Shown piece by piece: positions 1-10,726 of a stretch of DNA of 13,246 bases. Position 1 is the first letter of the stretch; every line of letters starts with the position of its first letter. The notes beneath the pieces were generated by a model. That model was not told where the DNA came from. It ran no database searches and was given only the letters and a program-made list of their open reading frames with translations. This DNA is from Candidatus Latescibacterota bacterium. Its GTDB lineage: Bacteria > JAAXHH01 > JACQVL01. The stretch spans positions 1 through 13,246 of the forward strand of contig JACQVL010000228.1 in the NCBI GenBank assembly GCA_016209865.1. Direction: 5' to 3'. Made by a program: the position numbers and the translations under genes.

Positions 1-419
1 CCGTCGTCGATCAGCTTGCGGCAGGTCTGCAGCCCCCCGCCGAGAAACGTATCGGGCGCGCCGCCGATCAGGAGTCGTTACGCGGCCGCAAGGGCGACCA
101 TCCGGCGGCCATCCTCACGGCTGACGGCGAGGGGTTTTTCGTTGTACACGCACTTGCCCGCTTCGAGCGCGGCCATGCCCACCTCGGCATGCGCCTTCGG
201 GATGGTCAAGTTGATGACGACCTGAATCTCCGGGTCGTCGAGGAGGTCTTCGACGGTGTACACACGAGGAATCCCGAACTCTTCCGCTCGCGCCTTCGCC
301 CGGTCGATGATGAGGTCGGCGCACGCCACGACCTCGAACACGCGAAACCTTTTTGCGACTTCGAAGTAGACTTTGCTGATCGTGCCGCATCCGATCACAC
401 CCGCTTTGATCGTTGGCAT
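1..419 (-). pseudogene. Gfo/Idh/MocA oxidoreductase, N-terminal part, broken by an in-frame stop
   Basis: This is the NAD(P)-binding half of a Gfo/Idh/MocA-family dehydrogenase, a family that oxidises or reduces sugars, inositols and related compounds. The start ATG is at 419-417 and the first 113 codons are intact. They show the Rossmann glycine motif GVIGCGTIS (residues 7-15) and the family EKP motif (residues 94-96). A TAA at 78-80 follows ALAAA. Without any frame shift the reading frame then continues to the window edge as RLLIGGAPDTFLGGGLQTC, which is the conserved family sequence expected at that point. One base change (for example AAA to TAA) would explain the stop. It is therefore a recent pseudogene, a sequence error or a readthrough case. 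The rest of the gene lies outside the window. A ribosome binding site (AGGAGAG, about 12 bases upstream) sits inside a hairpin. The gene follows a membrane-protein gene on the same strand, probably in one transcript. The exact substrate cannot be told. Confidence 0.85.
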
Positions 420-987: not shown

Positions 988-1004
988 TCACACTGCATCT
1001 TGAA

Positions 1005-1081
1005 CCTCACCCCTACCCCACTGGCCCCCTTCCCCTCTCCGCAGACGGAGAGGGGAAGGGGGAGCGGGGGATGAGGTGAGG
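1005..1081. repeat. Long GC-rich inverted repeat with a perfect 17-bp stem
   Basis: The core is a perfect 17-bp inverted repeat (1025-1041 paired with 1046-1062) around the 4-base loop CAGA. The arms are pyrimidine-rich and purine-rich respectively. Outside a poorly matched stretch, CCTCACC (1005-1011) pairs with GGTGAGG (1075-1081). It lies between two divergent genes. It resembles the extragenic palindromes with a CCTCACCCC...GGGGTGAGG pattern seen in several bacterial groups. It could act as a transcription block between the divergent units, or be a dispersed repeat. Confidence 0.75.
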
Positions 1082-1106
1082 TGGACAACGAAACACCGCC
1101 TTGCCC

Positions 1107-1302: not shown

Positions 1303-4300
1303 ATGCGTTCGACACCCCGGATGATCGTCGTCGGACTCTGCCTGTGGGCGTGTCTCGCCACCCCAGCCGCCGGCCAGCCGGCAGAGGCCGCGTCCGCCCA
1401 GACGCACATCGAGGCGGCCGTCGCGCATTATCAACGGCGCGAGTGGGCGGCGGCGAAGATGGAACTGCAGGCGGCGCTGAGCCTGCAGAAGAAATCCGCC
1501 CTCGCCCATCACTGGTTCGGGATGGTCGCCCTGCAGGAAGGGAAGAAAAAGGACGCCGAGCGGTCGTTCCAGAGAGCGGCCTCGTTGGACAGGAAGCTGG
1601 CTGAGCCGTACAACGGCCTCGGCCTGCTCTATCGCTCGATGAAGAATCGGAAGATCGACGCCATCAGCGCGTTCAAACGCGCCCTCGAACTCAACCCGGC
1701 GTACGCCGACGCTCAGTACAACTTAGCGACGGCATACCTCGACATCAACGTCATGAACGTGTTTCCGTTGACGTTCACCAGACCATTGTATTCCGGCCTC
1801 GGCCGGCAGGCGCTCCAGAAGACGCTCGACCTCAACCCGGATCACCCGGACGCAAACTACGCTCTCGGCGTGATCTATGAAGTCGAACTGAACAACCCCG
1901 ACAAAGCCATCCCCTTCTACGTCCGGCAACTCCAGGTCAACCCCGACCGGGTCGAGACACTCAAACGCCTGGGCGTGTGTTATTTCAAAACGCGCCAGTA
2001 TCAGGACGGGGTGAACGTGTTCACCGCCCTCGTCCGCCAGCACCCGGCGCTGGAGACGACCACCCGCCCGATCATGGCGATGCTCCAGGCGTCTGCCGCC
2101 ATCAGCGCCAAGCAGTACGAACGGGCGGCGGCGACGTACGAGGAGTACTTGCAGACCCTCCCAGGCGACGAACGGGCCGTCTACGAAGACCTCACGGCGG
2201 TGGCTTCGGAGAGTGAACGCCGGGAGTACCAGTCCCTGCCCGAACCGGCGAAGGCGGAGTACCGGCGGCAATTCTGGAAGCAGCGGGACTCCGACCCGAC
2301 GACGCTCGTGAACGAGCGTCTGATCGAGCATTACCGGCGAGTGACGTTTGCCCGCTTCCATTTCGGGGAACGGAAATCCCCGTGGGACCGGCGCGGGGAG
2401 ATCTACGTGCGCTACGGCGACCCGGATGATCGCCAGGCCTTCGTCTTCTCCATCGGGGAACGCCAGGCTGACACCAAGGCCCCGGAAGAATGGGCGGGCT
2501 TCCCACGGACGACCCGGACGATCGCCGAGGGGATCCGGGAGAAGGCCCAGGCATCGAACCTCGAACGCTCCGCGTTTGCCCCGACCGGCAACGCGCGGGT
2601 CGACGCCATCCGGGAGATGAACCAGCAACTCCGGTATCAGTTGAGCGTCGAAGCCTCCACGATCGGCCTCTCCGCGTACCGGGTGGAGAGCTGGGTGTAC
2701 GTGCCCATGGGAGTCGAGCTGTTCTTCGTCGACCAGCTCGGCAACGGGATGTTCGACTACCCGCTGCCGACCGAACCCCGGAATATCGTCCGGGCCGCGC
2801 GACAGGCGGAGTACCATCCGGAGAAACTCGCCCGGGAGATGATCAAGAAAGTGCCGGAATACTACCGGTACGATTACGGCGGGGAGCTTTTGCGCTTCTT
2901 CTTCGACGCGGTGACGTTCCGGGGAAGCGGGAACAAGAGCGCGGTCGAGGTGGCGTTCGCCGTCCCGATGAACCAGCTTGGCGCCGTCTCCGACGGGAAG
3001 GGGGCGCAGACCTCCCTGGAAAGCCGGGTGACGATGACCAACGCCGAGTGGGAGGATGCCGCCAGCGCCGCCACTCAATTCGGGCCGTTCACCCGTCCAG
3101 CCTCCATCCGCCCGAAGGAGGCCGGGACGGAGTTGACGACGTTCCAATTGCCCGTGTCCGCCCTGCCCGGTGAGTATACCATCGCGGTCTCGGTGCGGGA
3201 CGCGGCGACTCGCCGGGTGGGCATCTACCGCCAGCCGGTGATGATCCCGTCTTACTCGTCCAATCAGTTGATGATGAGCGACATCAAGCTCGCCTCGTCG
3301 ATCAGTCCGACGGTGAAGTCCGGCCCGTTCGTCCGGCACCGGCTGGAGATCGTCCCCAACCCGACCCGCACGTTCGCCGTCTCCCGCCCGGTGTACGTCT
3401 ACTACGAACTGTACAACCTCCGCCAGGACGGCGACGGCAAGACGAACTTTAAGACGGACGTGACCGTCACCGCCCGGCAGGAGCAACAGGCGCTCGTCTG
3501 GCGTATCCTTTCCGGGTTCGGCCGGCTCGTCGAGAAGCCGGACCAGGACAAAGCGTTGACGTTCAGTATCCTCGATGCGTCGGCTTCTCCGACGGAAGCC
3601 CGGTATACCGCGCTCGACTTGAGCGGGTCTCCACCGGGACGGTATACCGTCGAGATCGCGGTGACGGACCTGAACACGAACCGGACGGTGAAAAAGACGT
3701 CGGAGTTTGTCGTCACCGCCGATGTCGCCGAGAAAGCCACTCAGGCCTCCCGCTGGCGGGTGAGCGGGCAGGACTCGACGGCGGAAGCGGCCGCGCCAGA
3801 GGATTCTATCGTCGTGCCGGTCCTCGCCTCGTCCATCCCGCCGGATTCCGGCGCGGCCTCCGGGGGCATGAGCGAACTGGCACGGCCGTCCTGGAACGAC
3901 CTGCTCCGCATCCTCCAATCCCCCCAGTACACGGTAGGGGCGAGGGATTCCTTGCAGAGAAGCGTCACGGACAGCGCGGTCGGTGAGTTTCTTTCCGGCC
4001 TGACTGAGAGTCTGAACGAGCAGCCCGGCGTCGGTTCTCCCGGTGAGGGGGATGAGTATAAGGACATGGTCTACGTCCCGGCCGGGCCGTTCTGGATGGG
4101 CGGCGACAGCACGAACGCGGACGAGCGGCCGTTTCACCAGGTGTCCACTGAGGCCTTCTACGTCGATCGGTATGAGGTCACCAACGCGCAATACAAACGG
4201 TTTCTGGAGGCGACCGGCCATACCCCTCCGCGCCACTGGCTCAACGGGGAATACCCGCCCGGCGAGGCCCGGTATCCGGTCGTGGGGGTGAGTTGGTACG

Positions 4301-4995
4301 ATGCGGATGCGTACGCGAAATGGGCGGGCAAGCGGTTGCCGTCAGAAGCGGAATGGGAGAAAGCGGCACGCGGCACGGACGGCCGTCTGTATCCCTGGGG
4401 GGATGAGTTCAGACCGGAGCGATTGAACGTGGGTGGGAATGAGGATTCCTACGAGACGACCTCGCCGGTCGGGTCGTTCCCGGAGGGGGTGAGCCCGTAT
4501 GGGGTGCTCGACATGGGGGGAAACGTGTGGGAATGGACGACCGACTGGTACGGCCCCTACCCCGGCAACCTCACTCCCAACCCGGCGTACGGGGAGCAGT
4601 ACCGGGTCATCCGGGGCGGGTCGTGGATGAACTACGACCTCAACACCCGGGCGTCTAACCGGGGGAAGTACTACCCGTCCGATACGAGCCTGTTGCTCGG
4701 CTTCCGGTGCGCGCGGGAGCCGAAAGCCGCCAGGCAGAAGCCCCGGTCAATCGCGGCAGGGGGGACCGCATCGTCCGTCTACGGGTATCTGCTCGTCGTC
4801 ACACCGGGCACGTGGGCGGATGTCTATGTGGACGGCGAAAAGCTGGGACAGACCCCCCAGGCCGACCCGCTGCGTCTGACGGTCGGGACACACCTCCTCC
4901 TGCTGACCAACCCCTTCTATCACGAATACCGGCGTGAGGTCGTGATTCAGGAAGACGCGCTGTCGAAAGAGCGGGCGGTGATGGTGAGGAAGTGA
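1303..4995 (+). CDS. Large exported TPR - GWxTD - FGE-like - PEGA protein
   Basis: This 1230-residue protein has a signal peptide (hydrophobic core MIVVGLCLWACLATPAAG, cut near residue 25), so it acts outside the cytoplasm. About six TPR-like repeats follow (residues about 35-300). A GWxTD-type domain comes next: FWKQRDSDP near residue 323 and WDRRGEIYVRYGDPDD near 365, the signature being degenerate because G is replaced by P. Beta-rich segments lead to a formylglycine-generating-enzyme/SUMF1-like domain (about 921-1135; VYVPAGPFWMGGD, GGNVWEW, VIRGGSW). A PEGA domain (about 1162-1230; VYVDGEKLGQTP) ends it. The two catalytic cysteines of true formylglycine enzymes, expected after GGSW, are N and T here, so this domain probably binds rather than oxidises. 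The ATG at 1303 has GGAG seven bases upstream; the same frame is open back to a GTG at 1081, but that start would bury the signal peptide. It is probably first in a three-gene unit. Its role is unknown; a surface or peptidoglycan-linked scaffold is inference. Confidence 0.9.
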   Translation: MRSTPRMIVVGLCLWACLATPAAGQPAEAASAQTHIEAAVAHYQRREWAAAKMELQAALSLQKKSALAHHWFGMVALQEGKKKDAERSFQRAASLDRKLAEPYNGLGLLYRSMKNRKIDAISAFKRALELNPAYADAQYNLATAYLDINVMNVFPLTFTRPLYSGLGRQALQKTLDLNPDHPDANYALGVIYEVELNNPDKAIPFYVRQLQVNPDRVETLKRLGVCYFKTRQYQDGVNVFTALVRQHPALETTTRPIMAMLQASAAISAKQYERAAATYEEYLQTLPGDERAVYEDLTAVASESERREYQSLPEPAKAEYRRQFWKQRDSDPTTLVNERLIEHYRRVTFARFHFGERKSPWDRRGEIYVRYGDPDDRQAFVFSIGERQADTKAPEEWAGFPRTTRTIAEGIREKAQASNLERSAFAPTGNARVDAIREMNQQLRYQLSVEASTIGLSAYRVESWVYVPMGVELFFVDQLGNGMFDYPLPTEPRNIVRAARQAEYHPEKLAREMIKKVPEYYRYDYGGELLRFFFDAVTFRGSGNKSAVEVAFAVPMNQLGAVSDGKGAQTSLESRVTMTNAEWEDAASAATQFGPFTRPASIRPKEAGTELTTFQLPVSALPGEYTIAVSVRDAATRRVGIYRQPVMIPSYSSNQLMMSDIKLASSISPTVKSGPFVRHRLEIVPNPTRTFAVSRPVYVYYELYNLRQDGDGKTNFKTDVTVTARQEQQALVWRILSGFGRLVEKPDQDKALTFSILDASASPTEARYTALDLSGSPPGRYTVEIAVTDLNTNRTVKKTSEFVVTADVAEKATQASRWRVSGQDSTAEAAAPEDSIVVPVLASSIPPDSGAASGGMSELARPSWNDLLRILQSPQYTVGARDSLQRSVTDSAVGEFLSGLTESLNEQPGVGSPGEGDEYKDMVYVPAGPFWMGGDSTNADERPFHQVSTEAFYVDRYEVTNAQYKRFLEATGHTPPRHWLNGEYPPGEARYPVVGVSWYDADAYAKWAGKRLPSEAEWEKAARGTDGRLYPWGDEFRPERLNVGGNEDSYETTSPVGSFPEGVSPYGVLDMGGNVWEWTTDWYGPYPGNLTPNPAYGEQYRVIRGGSWMNYDLNTRASNRGKYYPSDTSLLLGFRCAREPKAARQKPRSIAAGGTASSVYGYLLVVTPGTWADVYVDGEKLGQTPQADPLRLTVGTHLLLLTNPFYHEYRREVVIQEDALSKERAVMVRK

Positions 4996-5001
4996 ACGAG
5001 C

Positions 5002-5029
5002 AGTGACGAGTGACCAGTGACGAGTAAGA
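5002..5029 (+). repeat. Heptamer repeat array upstream of the TPR/DUF5683-like gene
   Basis: Three period-7 units (AGTGACG 5002-5008, AGTGACC 5009-5015, AGTGACG 5016-5022) end in AGTAAGA (5023-5029). The array fills almost the whole 37-base gap between two genes and stops three bases before the next start codon, where a ribosome binding site would be. A degenerate earlier unit begins at 4991 and contains the stop codon of the preceding gene. It belongs to the same family as the arrays at 6254, 9635 and 9825. Confidence 0.85.
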
Positions 5030-5032
5030 ACC

Positions 5033-6151
5033 ATGCAACGACTGTTCATGCTGGCATCATGCATTCTCCTGGCAACCCTCTGCCGTCCCGTTCAGGCGCA
5101 GGAGAGTGCGTCAGCGATCCAGGACGCGATCGCGCGGTACAGGGACGGCCGTCCGGCGGACGCCATCGAACGGTTGAACGACCTGCTCGCGTCGCCCGAC
5201 ACGATCGGCGTGGAACGGAAGGCCCGCGCCCTGGCTGAGACGTACCTGGCGTTGAGCTATCTGGCGACGGGCCGGCAGGAAGAAGCGCAGGCCGCGGTCG
5301 AGCGGGCGATCCTGACCGAACCGTCTGCGCTCGCCGAACACGCTGACGCATGGCCGAAGAAGCACAGAGCCGTGATCGACTCGGCGGCGGCTCGGCTCGT
5401 GACGGATGCGATTCGCCTGTACGACGATGCCGAGTACGAGCGCGTCATCGATCAGCTTCAGGCGGTGGCCTCTCTGGACGGCATCGTGAGTCAGGGGCTC
5501 TCCGCCGAGGTTCATACATACCTGGCGTTTACGTACGTCGCCATGAATCGTCTGGACCGCGCCCGCCACGAGTTCCAGACGGCCCTCCAGGCCAACCCGA
5601 AGCTGACGCTCGACGATGAAGCCGTGGTCGCGCCGAAGCTCCGTCGCGTCTTCGTCACGGTCCGCCGCGAGACGCTCTCACGCGCGCGGGGGAGAACGCT
5701 GCGGAACACATTCTGGCGGTCCCTCGTCCTCCCCGGCTGGGGACAGGTGTACCGGGGACAACACGTCAAGGGCTACGGGTTGATGGCCGCAGAGGCAGGA
5801 CTCGTCACTGGCGCGGTGATTGCGGTTCGATCCTTCATCGCGGCGCGGAATGCGTACGTGCGCTTTAGCACCGACGAAGCCTTAGTTATCTACAACCAGC
5901 GCCGGTCGATCGACGATGTTAACACGGCGGTTCAGCGACGGTACGACCGGTACGCGTCGAGCGCCCGGCGGGCGAACGTGATGGTTGGCCTCGCCGCGGG
6001 CTTCTGGGGGTTGAACATGCTCGATGCGCTGATCGTTGCACATCGCGATGAGAGCCGGTCGCGTGCGTCACACGATCAACCGGCCGGCCTGACGATGGCA
6101 TGGGAGCCGGCAGCACAGCAGTGGTTGGTGAAGTATCAGGTGATGTGGTAA
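5033..6151 (+). CDS. Exported TPR protein with a DUF5683-like membrane tail
   Basis: This 372-residue protein has a signal peptide (MQRLFMLASC onward, cut after VQA, residue 22). A TPR-rich region spans about residues 25-200; IERLNDLLASPD and ARHEFQTALQANPKLTLDD are typical repeat pieces. The C-terminal part begins with LVLPGWGQVYRGQHVKGY (about residues 230-247), the pattern of DUF5683-type domains. It holds two hydrophobic segments, near residues 247-268 and 318-340, separated by a charged loop with YDRY and RRSIDD. The likely topology is a periplasmic TPR part anchored in the inner membrane. It lies 37 bases after the GWxTD protein gene, so co-transcription is likely and the two TPR proteins may interact. 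Only a weak AAGAA precedes the ATG, because the heptamer array takes up the ribosome binding site position. The role is not known; DUF5683 is a domain of unknown function. Confidence 0.82.
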   Translation: MQRLFMLASCILLATLCRPVQAQESASAIQDAIARYRDGRPADAIERLNDLLASPDTIGVERKARALAETYLALSYLATGRQEEAQAAVERAILTEPSALAEHADAWPKKHRAVIDSAAARLVTDAIRLYDDAEYERVIDQLQAVASLDGIVSQGLSAEVHTYLAFTYVAMNRLDRARHEFQTALQANPKLTLDDEAVVAPKLRRVFVTVRRETLSRARGRTLRNTFWRSLVLPGWGQVYRGQHVKGYGLMAAEAGLVTGAVIAVRSFIAARNAYVRFSTDEALVIYNQRRSIDDVNTAVQRRYDRYASSARRANVMVGLAAGFWGLNMLDALIVAHRDESRSRASHDQPAGLTMAWEPAAQQWLVKYQVMW

Positions 6152-6165
6152 TGGAAACCTGTCGG

Positions 6166-6197
6166 GGGGAAAAGGGCCAAAGGCGAAAAGGCGAAAA
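6166..6197 (+). repeat. G/A-rich octamer array
   Basis: Four period-8 units run in a row: GGGGAAAA, GGGCCAAA, GGCGAAAA and GGCGAAAA (6166-6197). A reverse-complement unit (TTTTCGCC, 6293-6300) lies about 100 bases on, inside the next coding sequence. It is the first part of a cluster of three repeat types between the TPR gene and the lipoprotein gene. Confidence 0.7.
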
Positions 6198-6204
6198 AGA
6201 CTGG

Positions 6205-6224
6205 ATTCCCGTCTGTGCGGGCAT
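6205..6224. repeat. dRS3-like palindrome
   Basis: ATTCCCG (6205-6211) and CGGGCAT (6218-6224) form a near-palindrome with one mismatch around a 6-base spacer, preceded by CTGG and followed by GAG. This is the shape of the dispersed ATTCCC...GGGAAT palindromes known from Neisseria (dRS3) and seen in other bacteria. Its reverse strand reads as the familiar spurious peptide MPAQTGIQ. One possible start codon of the lipoprotein (6223) overlaps its right arm. Confidence 0.6.
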
Positions 6225-6231
6225 GAGAGTC

Positions 6232-7605
6232 ATGAACCGTCCCTCTATTTTCTCGTCACTCGGCACTCGTCACTCGTCACTGCTTCTCGCCCTTTTCGCC
6301 CCCTGGCTCGTCGGCCTATTCAGCCTCGGTCTCTGCTCCTGCTACAAAGCAGAGCGAAGCAACCCGCTCGATGGCCAGGCCGCGCAACTGTTTGTCCCGC
6401 AGGTCCTCTCCCCCAGCGGGGGTGAACAATGGTTTGCCAGCACCACGCAACATATCCGCTGGAAGCCTGCTGAGCAAGTCATCGATTCGGTCGTCACCCT
6501 GCAACTGGTGAGCGACCAGGATCTTAACGGCAGCGGGGGTGGCAGACGTCCTCTCCCCTACCTTTACGTCATCGCGGAGAACATCCCGAATACCGGCCAT
6601 TTTACGTGGGCTGTTCCCAACCTCAGTTCCCGGTCCTGTCGGATTCGGGTCGTGACTCGTCGCGGCCAGGCGGAGAGCGAGGGCACCTTCCGGATCAGCC
6701 CGCCGCCCGTTCTGAACCAGTTCCCTATCCGCGGGGAGGGACGGGAACCCACGGCACTTCGAGATCTGGTCGTCTTTACTTCTAACCGGGGCGGGAGCGA
6801 TGACCTGTGGATGATCAACCTCCGGACGGGCGACCTGACACAGTTGACGAACGCACCGGGGTTCGATGGGCAGGCGGATTGGTTCAGGCCGAACGGGAAC
6901 CTCCTGGCGTTCACCTCGGACCGGAGCGGACAGAAAGACATCTGGCTGCTCAACATGAGTCAGCTTCCCCCTCGGCCAATCCGCCTCACCACCACCGGGG
7001 GGGAGCAGCCGACCTGGCAGTCCAGTTTCCTTCACTATCCTTCCCTGGCGTACGTGGCGGCCGATCCAAGCCAGCCCGGCCTGTCCCAGATTCTGGCCGT
7101 CACACTCGCCATCCCGACTACGGTGATTGATACCCTGTCCGACCCAGTCCCCCCCTTTACCTCAGTCCGGTTGACACGCACCCGCTTCAACCTCTCCAGC
7201 CGCACGAACATTCAAAGTCCGTCCTGGGGGCTTCCCGGAAGTGTTAACGACAATGTACTCGTGTATGAAACCCGTTCGACCGAGTCGTTCTCGACCTTCC
7301 CAGCCCTGTGGGCGCTGGAGTTCTCCACCATCGCGATGGAAGCTGTCTCCCTGAGCCGGTTCACCACTCCGCCCGGCCTGCCCGCCACGCATCCGTCGTT
7401 TTCCCCCAGCGGGGCGCGTGTGGCGTTCAGCGCCCTGGGAAACCTGTGGGTCAAATCCCTGGCCGGGGTCTCGGCACTGCAACTGACGTACGACGACGCG
7501 GAGGATGATTTCCCCGGCTGGGCGACCGAGACGACGATCGTCTTTCAGCGACGGCCGACGCCCAACAGTCCCTGGGAACTCTGGACGGTGGAGGTGGTGG
7601 AGTAG
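6232..7605 (+). CDS. Lipoprotein with Kre9/KNH-like domain and PD40 beta-propeller
   Basis: This protein of about 457 residues starts with a hydrophobic signal followed by LGLCSC. The second cysteine (C37, preceded by LCS) is the best lipid-attachment site, so it is probably a membrane-anchored lipoprotein. Residues about 57-156 resemble the Kre9/KNH-type Ser-Thr-rich domain (VLSPSGGEQWF, HIRWKP, NIPNTGHFTW, SCRIRV). Residues about 160-457 carry TolB/PD40-type propeller repeats (FTSNRGGSDDLWMINL, FTSDRSGQKDIWLLNM, HPSFSPSGARVAFS, FPGWATETTIVFQR). The frame is open back to 6100, overlapping the previous gene. The ATG at 6232 is preferred (6223 is the alternative), but neither has a convincing ribosome binding site. 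The signal peptide is partly encoded by repeat DNA (SSLGTRHSSL by heptamers at 6254-6281, and LFAP by a TTTTCGCC unit). It lies 80 bases after the TPR/DUF5683-like gene. Binding of envelope proteins or glycans is plausible but not shown. Confidence 0.82.
   Translation: MNRPSIFSSLGTRHSSLLLALFAPWLVGLFSLGLCSCYKAERSNPLDGQAAQLFVPQVLSPSGGEQWFASTTQHIRWKPAEQVIDSVVTLQLVSDQDLNGSGGGRRPLPYLYVIAENIPNTGHFTWAVPNLSSRSCRIRVVTRRGQAESEGTFRISPPPVLNQFPIRGEGREPTALRDLVVFTSNRGGSDDLWMINLRTGDLTQLTNAPGFDGQADWFRPNGNLLAFTSDRSGQKDIWLLNMSQLPPRPIRLTTTGGEQPTWQSSFLHYPSLAYVAADPSQPGLSQILAVTLAIPTTVIDTLSDPVPPFTSVRLTRTRFNLSSRTNIQSPSWGLPGSVNDNVLVYETRSTESFSTFPALWALEFSTIAMEAVSLSRFTTPPGLPATHPSFSPSGARVAFSALGNLWVKSLAGVSALQLTYDDAEDDFPGWATETTIVFQRRPTPNSPWELWTVEVVE
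6254..6281 (-). repeat. Heptamer repeat array inside the lipoprotein signal-peptide coding region
   Basis: Four exact period-7 units on the plus strand (CGTCACT, CGGCACT, CGTCACT, CGTCACT) are the reverse complement of the AGTGACG unit. The A-rich tail of the family appears as TATTTTCT just before the array (6246-6253). The repeat is in frame with the lipoprotein and encodes most of SSLGTRHSSL. Confidence 0.85.
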
Positions 7606-9880: not shown

Positions 9881-10726
9881 ATGCTGATCGACGGCCAGAC
9901 GGAATACCGGATCGTGAGCGGCGGACGGTTCATGCTGGACGGCGGAGGGATGTTCGGGATCATCCCCAAGACCCTCTGGGCGCGGCTCAGGACTCCCGAC
10001 GAATTGAACCGGATCGAGATGGCGACCAACTGCCTGCTCGTCCGGACTCCTCAGCAGACGATCCTCGTCGATACCGGGTACGGGACGAAGCTGTCCGCCA
10101 AGGCGCGGGAGATCTACGGGATCACGGAGACGGACGCGCTCGTCCGTTCCCTCGCCCACGCGGGAGTCCGTCCGGACGACATCGACCTGGTCATCCTGAG
10201 CCACCTCCACTTCGATCACGCGGGGGGCGCGACGGTCGCCGATCTGGAAGGGCACCTGTATCCGGCTTTCCCGCACGCCCGGTATATCGCCCAGCGCGGA
10301 GAATGGGATGACGCGGTCAACAAGCGCGCGACGATGACCGCATCGTACATGGATGACAACTACCTGCCCCTTCGTGACTACGGGCTATTGACGCTGATCG
10401 ATGGGGATGACGAGGTGTGTCCGGGCGTTCGGGTGTTCGTGACCGGAGGGCATACCCGGTGTCATCAGGTGGTGATGGTGGAGTCAGCCCACCAGACCGT
10501 GGTCTACGCCGGGGACATCCTGCCGACGACGTCCCACCTCCGGGGTCCCTACAACATGGCGTACGACCTGTTCCCGTACGAGACGATGACCCAGAAATCG
10601 CGATGGCTCGAACGGGCGGCGGCCGGCGGATGGCTCCTCGTCTGGAATCACGACCCAATCACCCCGGCGGGACGAGTGATCGACGAAGGGAATGGGCAGT
10701 ACCGGCCGGAACCGGTGGCGTTGTAA
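9881..10726 (+). CDS. MBL-fold metallohydrolase
   Basis: This 281-residue protein is a metallo-beta-lactamase-fold hydrolase with the full two-metal motif. SHLHFDH gives H108, H110, D112 and H113. GGHTRCHQ gives H191, YAGDILPT gives D212, and WNHDP gives H257. This spacing fits the lactonase/hydrolase-like MBL proteins (as in AHL lactonase-type enzymes), but no feature fixes a substrate; true beta-lactamase activity is not implied. There is no signal peptide, so it is probably cytoplasmic. The ATG at 9881 is the first in frame; an AAAGGA sequence lies about 14 bases upstream, rather far, and a later ATG (residue 18) is less likely because the first strand would be lost. It faces the deaminase gene across the repeat-bounded gap and converges with a response-regulator gene, its TAA being three bases from the other stop. 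Confidence 0.9.
   Translation: MLIDGQTEYRIVSGGRFMLDGGGMFGIIPKTLWARLRTPDELNRIEMATNCLLVRTPQQTILVDTGYGTKLSAKAREIYGITETDALVRSLAHAGVRPDDIDLVILSHLHFDHAGGATVADLEGHLYPAFPHARYIAQRGEWDDAVNKRATMTASYMDDNYLPLRDYGLLTLIDGDDEVCPGVRVFVTGGHTRCHQVVMVESAHQTVVYAGDILPTTSHLRGPYNMAYDLFPYETMTQKSRWLERAAAGGWLLVWNHDPITPAGRVIDEGNGQYRPEPVAL

Follow-up and report, generated by a model that had tools for sequence, protein, structure and literature searches.

A three-gene envelope locus of a Latescibacterota bacterium, read as a kinase-less relative of a PEGA and TPR-DUF5683 module

Described envelope systems and the window locus

In PorK, which is anchored in the outer membrane as part of the PorKN ring, an FGE (formylglycine-generating enzyme) fold serves as a docking hub, a precedent for an inactive FGE domain (PMC12421860). 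PorE (PG1058) combines TPRs with a beta-propeller and has been proposed to be an envelope scaffold (PMC5053529). It is a single lipoprotein with an OmpA-like peptidoglycan-binding domain. In Tol-Pal (TolB with CpoB), a PD40/TolB-like propeller is found next to TPR proteins.

The window is the whole stretch of DNA that was analysed, 13,246 nucleotides from a Candidatus Latescibacterota genome (G000). Its plus strand carries three consecutive open reading frames, encoding P0001, P0002 and P0003 (Table 1). A sequence-only reading had described them as neighbouring genes for exported proteins with TPR, PD40, PEGA, GWxTD, FGE-like and Kre9/KNH-like domains, and the open reading frames and Pfam/NCBIfam profiles bear this out. 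The same reading was reminded of Tol-Pal-like or surface-assembly machines by the combination. The Tol-Pal resemblance does not hold, as the TolB equivalog model scores 57 against a cut-off of 343, and TolA, TolQ, TolR and Pal are absent from the neighbourhoods read. Like PorK and GldK, P0001 has an FGE fold that lacks the catalytic cysteines, but unlike PorK it carries a signal peptide with no lipobox. PorE differs in that the window has its TPRs and propeller on separate proteins and an OmpA domain is absent. From sequence comparison and gene order, we take the locus to be related to an envelope module, apparently undescribed, of PEGA and a TPR-DUF5683 protein, but to lack its kinase.

Table 1. 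Features of the three-gene locus and its upstream flank, in window coordinates.
Feature	Position	Strand	Basis or remark
P0001, exported multidomain scaffold, 1230 aa	1303..4995	+	Domain profiles, AF2 model, G013 orthologue
P0001 TPR region, ~residues 35-290	1405..2172	+	Pfam TPR models
P0001 GWxTD domain, residues 294-390	2182..2472	+	TIGR04514, 57 bits vs cut-off 28
P0001 tandem Ig/FnIII-like beta-sandwiches, residues 528-649 and 654-808	2884..3726	+	AlphaFold2, pLDDT mostly >90
P0001 FGE-like domain, residues 919-1138, catalytic Cys pair absent	4057..4716	+	Pfam FGE-sulfatase, 222 bits
P0001 C-terminal PEGA, kinase-cluster subtype	4786..4959	+	Kinase-PEGA HMMs, 50-54 bits
P0002, TPR and TM-hairpin (DUF5683) protein, 372 aa	5033..6151	+	Domain profiles; AF2 pLDDT 89
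P0002 DUF5683 region, residues 225-339, PGWG invariant	5705..6049	+	Pfam, 42.7 bits vs cut-off 26.7
P0003, lipoprotein, Kre9/KNH-like Ig domain and PD40 propeller	6232..7605	+	ORF reaches upstream to 6100
GFO/IDH oxidoreductase, N-terminal 139 aa, flanking, non-module	3..419	-	Divergent from P0001 in 4/4 genomes

The three proteins and their conservation

P0001 is composed of a signal peptide, TPRs, a GWxTD domain, two Ig-like domains, an inactive FGE-like domain and PEGA, which forms its end in place of any C-terminal sorting domain. Its score places it in the GWxTD-domain family (TIGR04514) by the curated cut-off, with the motif itself reading PWDRR in the window. AlphaFold2 was run on residues 285-870 (41 sequences, pLDDT 78.7) and modelled the GWxTD region as helical. 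By Foldseek/VIA, the Ig-like tandem of the model matches the tandem-FnIII protein RbmA, along with further Ig-like proteins, at Z ~10; such fold matches are generic. From a PDB profile search with the GWxTD-Ig region, no meaningful relative by sequence emerged. For the FGE-like domain, the best alignments are to the structures of ToxD and human FGE, and its matches include PorK/GldK and T. denticola variable protein 1. The positions of human FGE C336/C341 are D/A in the window protein and D/T in the G013 orthologue, and the other orthologues likewise lack the pair, so a formylglycine-generating enzyme is ruled out. The generic Pfam PEGA model scores 23.6 bits against a cut-off of 20.8. No full-length relative of P0001 was found in a scan of public genome contigs, which returned mainly FGE domains. 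At L153, L154, L155, L156 and L157, paralogues of the TPR-GWxTD-Ig type without FGE or PEGA form tandem arrays with as many as six or so members, and in front of them is a conserved small protein (~200 aa) rich in Arg/Trp.

P0002 has TPRs, a DUF5683 region (42.7 bits; cut-off 26.7), a signal peptide and two more hydrophobic segments. Its AlphaFold2 model runs from TPR helices through a long helix and a PGWGQ turn to a membrane hairpin and a C-terminal beta hairpin. The loop joining the two membrane helices is Arg-rich, so by the positive-inside rule the TPRs and the C-terminus would be periplasmic. The sequence-only reading had arranged the three proteins as a layered assembly; the confident model and TM hairpin of P0002 support the membrane-anchored TPR/DUF5683 part of this predicted arrangement. 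VIA-align of the P0002 model returned TPR folds only, a comparison that barely probes the DUF5683 part. Membership in the TssQ T6SS-associated lipoproteins was rejected (57.8 bits, under the cut-off of 65). In another genome, a CsgG/LpoB-like domain is joined to DUF5683 (L203, 7419-8357).

P0003 matches PD40 at 42.1 bits. Its Kre9/KNH match, at 22.9 bits, is slightly below the cut-off of 24.6 and recurs in two paralogues. The true start is probably 6223 or 6232, from which the signal peptide reads ...LGLCSC-Y, with the codon of the lipid Cys at 6340-6342. Shortly after the lipobox Cys is an SNPLD motif, and [ST]NPLD-like motifs are common to P0003 relatives. Outside the window's order, searches with P0003 match propeller blades only. 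In G000, a 979-aa frame on contig C278 (L060) is matched by both a Ser/Thr kinase profile and P0003, as a kinase with a PD40 propeller sensor.

The phylum sample is composed of 16 genomes from one order and five genera. P0002 orthologues are found in four of them (G000, G001, G011 and G013), which represent four of the five genera, and P0001-P0002-P0003 are adjacent and in the same order in all four at 37-52% protein identity. Conservation of the neighbourhood had been proposed as a check on the locus, and the orthologues are not scattered. The P0001 orthologue of G013 is full-length and 52% identical to that of the window; that of G001 is divided between two contigs, and that of G011 has frame breaks. 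G013 and G001 have an extra P0003-like copy downstream. Upstream, on the minus strand, the relatives carry a GFO/IDH oxidoreductase together with a second propeller lipoprotein, and beyond these, if the contig extends far enough, a DUF815 ATPase. In G000, this flank continues across a contig break, and contig C133 (L149) holds the remainder of the GFO/IDH gene and the second propeller gene.

In the fifth genus (12 genomes/species), P0002 and the P0001 C-terminus are missing from all 12. At the five loci examined there, DUF815 directly follows GFO/IDH, and a 664-aa membrane gene, which in G011 lies downstream of P0003, is kept on the other side. The three genes and the second propeller gene are thus missing at two separate sites, and no convincing remnant of them was found at these loci. 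Presence in three families and absence from one genus suggest one ancestral set that was later lost jointly. Because the genomes of the genus that lacks the set are mostly smaller, this co-loss may partly reflect general reduction, and it is supportive rather than conclusive. GFO/IDH, DUF815 and the 664-aa membrane gene were rejected as parts of the module, since the genus without the module retains all three.

Other features of the surroundings were also observed. The GFO/IDH frame of the window has an in-frame TAA (AAA*RLLIGG) where its relatives read through, which is either a nonsense mutation or an assembly error. A REP-like palindrome and short repeats of the CTCGTCA/GTGACGAGT type are intergenic at window positions 1000-1083, 4990-5030 and 6250-6290. 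A metallo-beta-lactamase-fold protein is encoded at 9881-10726 (+), nearest to lactonases of the YtnP type (200 bits against a cut-off of 425). Beside DUF815 in two genomes (L149, 2838-7064; L144, 2-4333) are large secreted proteins with a purple-acid-phosphatase N-terminal domain, fn3 domains and a Por_Secre_tail/FlgD_ig end; SprA was not found in G000.

Kinase-linked relatives in other phyla

The search for genes like P0002 covered 384 genomes, and 20 loci were fetched by similarity to P0002. The full TPR-DUF5683 architecture is present in 10 of these, and in 8 of the 10 a Ser/Thr kinase with C-terminal PEGA is encoded no more than two genes away. By Pfam, this cluster usually comprises an NPLDP lipoprotein that bears a CarboxypepD_reg domain, then a GAF-sigma54 activator and the kinase, which has two PEGA domains, and after these a kelch propeller, in some cases with Por_Secre_tail, and the TPR-DUF5683 protein. 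A second set of loci shows the same pattern, though it was chosen by profile and is hence less independent. G359, a single contig of 4,978,541 bases (45.5% GC locally), holds the kinase-linked form, and PEGA-DUF5683 fusions are found in two other genomes. Recurrence of the cluster across phyla was observed at L185, L187, L189, L191, L192, L194, L199, L200, L262, L263 and L266-L270, often with the kelch propeller. The cluster has the appearance of an undescribed trans-envelope signalling system.

The relationship of the window to this cluster, which the sequence-only reading had overlooked, involves P0002 as well as the C-terminal PEGA of P0001. Homology between P0002 and the TPR-DUF5683 protein that accompanies the kinases extends across the TPR part and the membrane part alike. 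Among 28 P0002 relatives placed in a tree, the four orthologues of the window's phylum form one clade (100/100) inside a large group made up mostly of kinase-linked rows; the deeper forks are unsettled and several branches are long. The PEGA domains were compared with HMMs built from kinase PEGA domains alone. The HMM of tandem copy 2 and the pooled HMM give the four P0001 orthologues 47-64 bits and that of copy 1 gives them 44-59 bits, whereas no other PEGA domain of the phylum in this comparison exceeds 34 bits (the comparison took in 15 stretches, a subset of the phylum's PEGA domains). The generic PF08308 model ranks several other PEGA proteins of the phylum above P0001, and the kinase-PEGA HMMs reverse this ranking. 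Because of these scores and the homology of P0002, P0002 and the PEGA of P0001 are both specifically related to a pair that is adjacent in other phyla.

The window and the kinase cluster have in common the PEGA subtype, the homologous TPR-DUF5683 protein and an NPLD-type lipoprotein. In the cluster, however, a transmembrane Ser/Thr kinase carries PEGA as its sensor end, and a GAF-sigma54 activator and a kelch propeller lie next to it, whereas in the window PEGA ends a soluble TPR-GWxTD-Ig-FGE protein. The window also has a propeller gene near by, but its product is a PD40 lipoprotein that corresponds to the kelch protein in fold class alone. Neither P0001 nor its neighbours were found to contain a kinase or sigma54 domain, and with both kinase and activator missing, the locus is a relative and not a member of the cluster. 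The literature searched, which was limited in scope, held no description of either form of the PEGA/TPR-DUF5683 module, nothing relevant on the function of GWxTD or DUF5683, no PEGA and kinase paper describing the cluster, and no functional paper on kinase-type PEGA domains.

A possible function and its alternatives

The three genes are inherited together in the window's order and are missing together in one genus. We give a probability of roughly 50% to the reading that they act as one unit and build a periplasmic assembly anchored in the inner membrane, which would serve as a sensor or structural bridge and have no kinase output of its own. The PEGA subtype and the homology of P0002 tie it to the kinase module, and a propeller gene is close by in both contexts. 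Homology and synteny are observed; the physical contacts we infer. The two-helix hairpin would anchor P0002 in the inner membrane with its TPRs in the periplasm, where this part of P0002 would engage the PEGA of P0001. As PEGA sits on a soluble scaffold and not on a kinase, P0001 would be kept at the inner membrane. The TPR, Ig and non-catalytic FGE-like domains of P0001 could then bind the propeller lipoproteins (P0003 and its divergent paralogue) and perhaps a surface ligand. In the kinase form, engagement of PEGA by a P0002-type protein would report to the kinase, whereas in the window form it would hold P0001.

A different possibility is that P0001 and P0002 are signalling partners that feed a Ser/Thr kinase, which may be encoded elsewhere in the genome, with the assembly sensing envelope state or carbohydrate. 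Other phyla couple the same pair to a kinase and a sigma54 activator, and Ser/Thr kinases are abundant in G000. We nevertheless consider this unlikely, because no kinase adjoins the module in the four genomes and none was found in the phylum that carries the PEGA subtype of P0001. A whole-kinase profile recovered kinase domains without PEGA there, and its PEGA matches were only P0001 of G000 and G013.

P0001 could also be a secreted adhesive of the surface or matrix, with a lectin-like FGE fold, that P0002 and P0003 help to reach or stay at the surface. The likeness of its Ig-like tandem to the biofilm scaffold RbmA points this way, as does the fact that FGE-like folds also serve for binding, with T. 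denticola variable protein 1 among the matches. The Ig-like matches are generic, though, and P0001 ends in PEGA and has no C-terminal sorting domain, which makes this quite an unlikely account.

The TPR, PEGA, FGE and propeller domains are promiscuous, a caveat on any shared assembly, and paralogous TPR-GWxTD arrays multiply freely. Three generic, domain-shuffled envelope proteins without a shared function, in an order that was merely inherited, would fit these facts. Retention of the order at such identities, joint absence at two sites and recurrence of the P0001/P0002 pairing in other phyla render this improbable. A sub-complex diverged from type IX secretion or gliding machinery, with a PorK-like FGE and PorE-like TPR/propeller parts, has a similar fold inventory in its favour but is hardly credible, given a GldK score of 99 bits against a cut-off of 350, the missing lipobox of P0001, and a SprA distribution (present in all 12 module-lacking genomes, not found in that of the window) that does not track the module.

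Beyond the inner-membrane assembly that we favour for the window, we tentatively propose, at less than even odds, that many phyla share a trans-envelope sensing module, so far undescribed, with PEGA and TPR-DUF5683 at its core. It would usually be read by a Ser/Thr kinase and a sigma54 activator, and in the window's order the kinase end would be replaced by the propeller-coupled periplasmic TPR-GWxTD-Ig-FGE scaffold. PEGA-TPR pairing at the inner membrane would give DUF5683, GWxTD proteins and kinase-type PEGA a common, testable context. The kinase-less form would show how a sensor domain passed between a kinase and a structural scaffold, in whichever direction.
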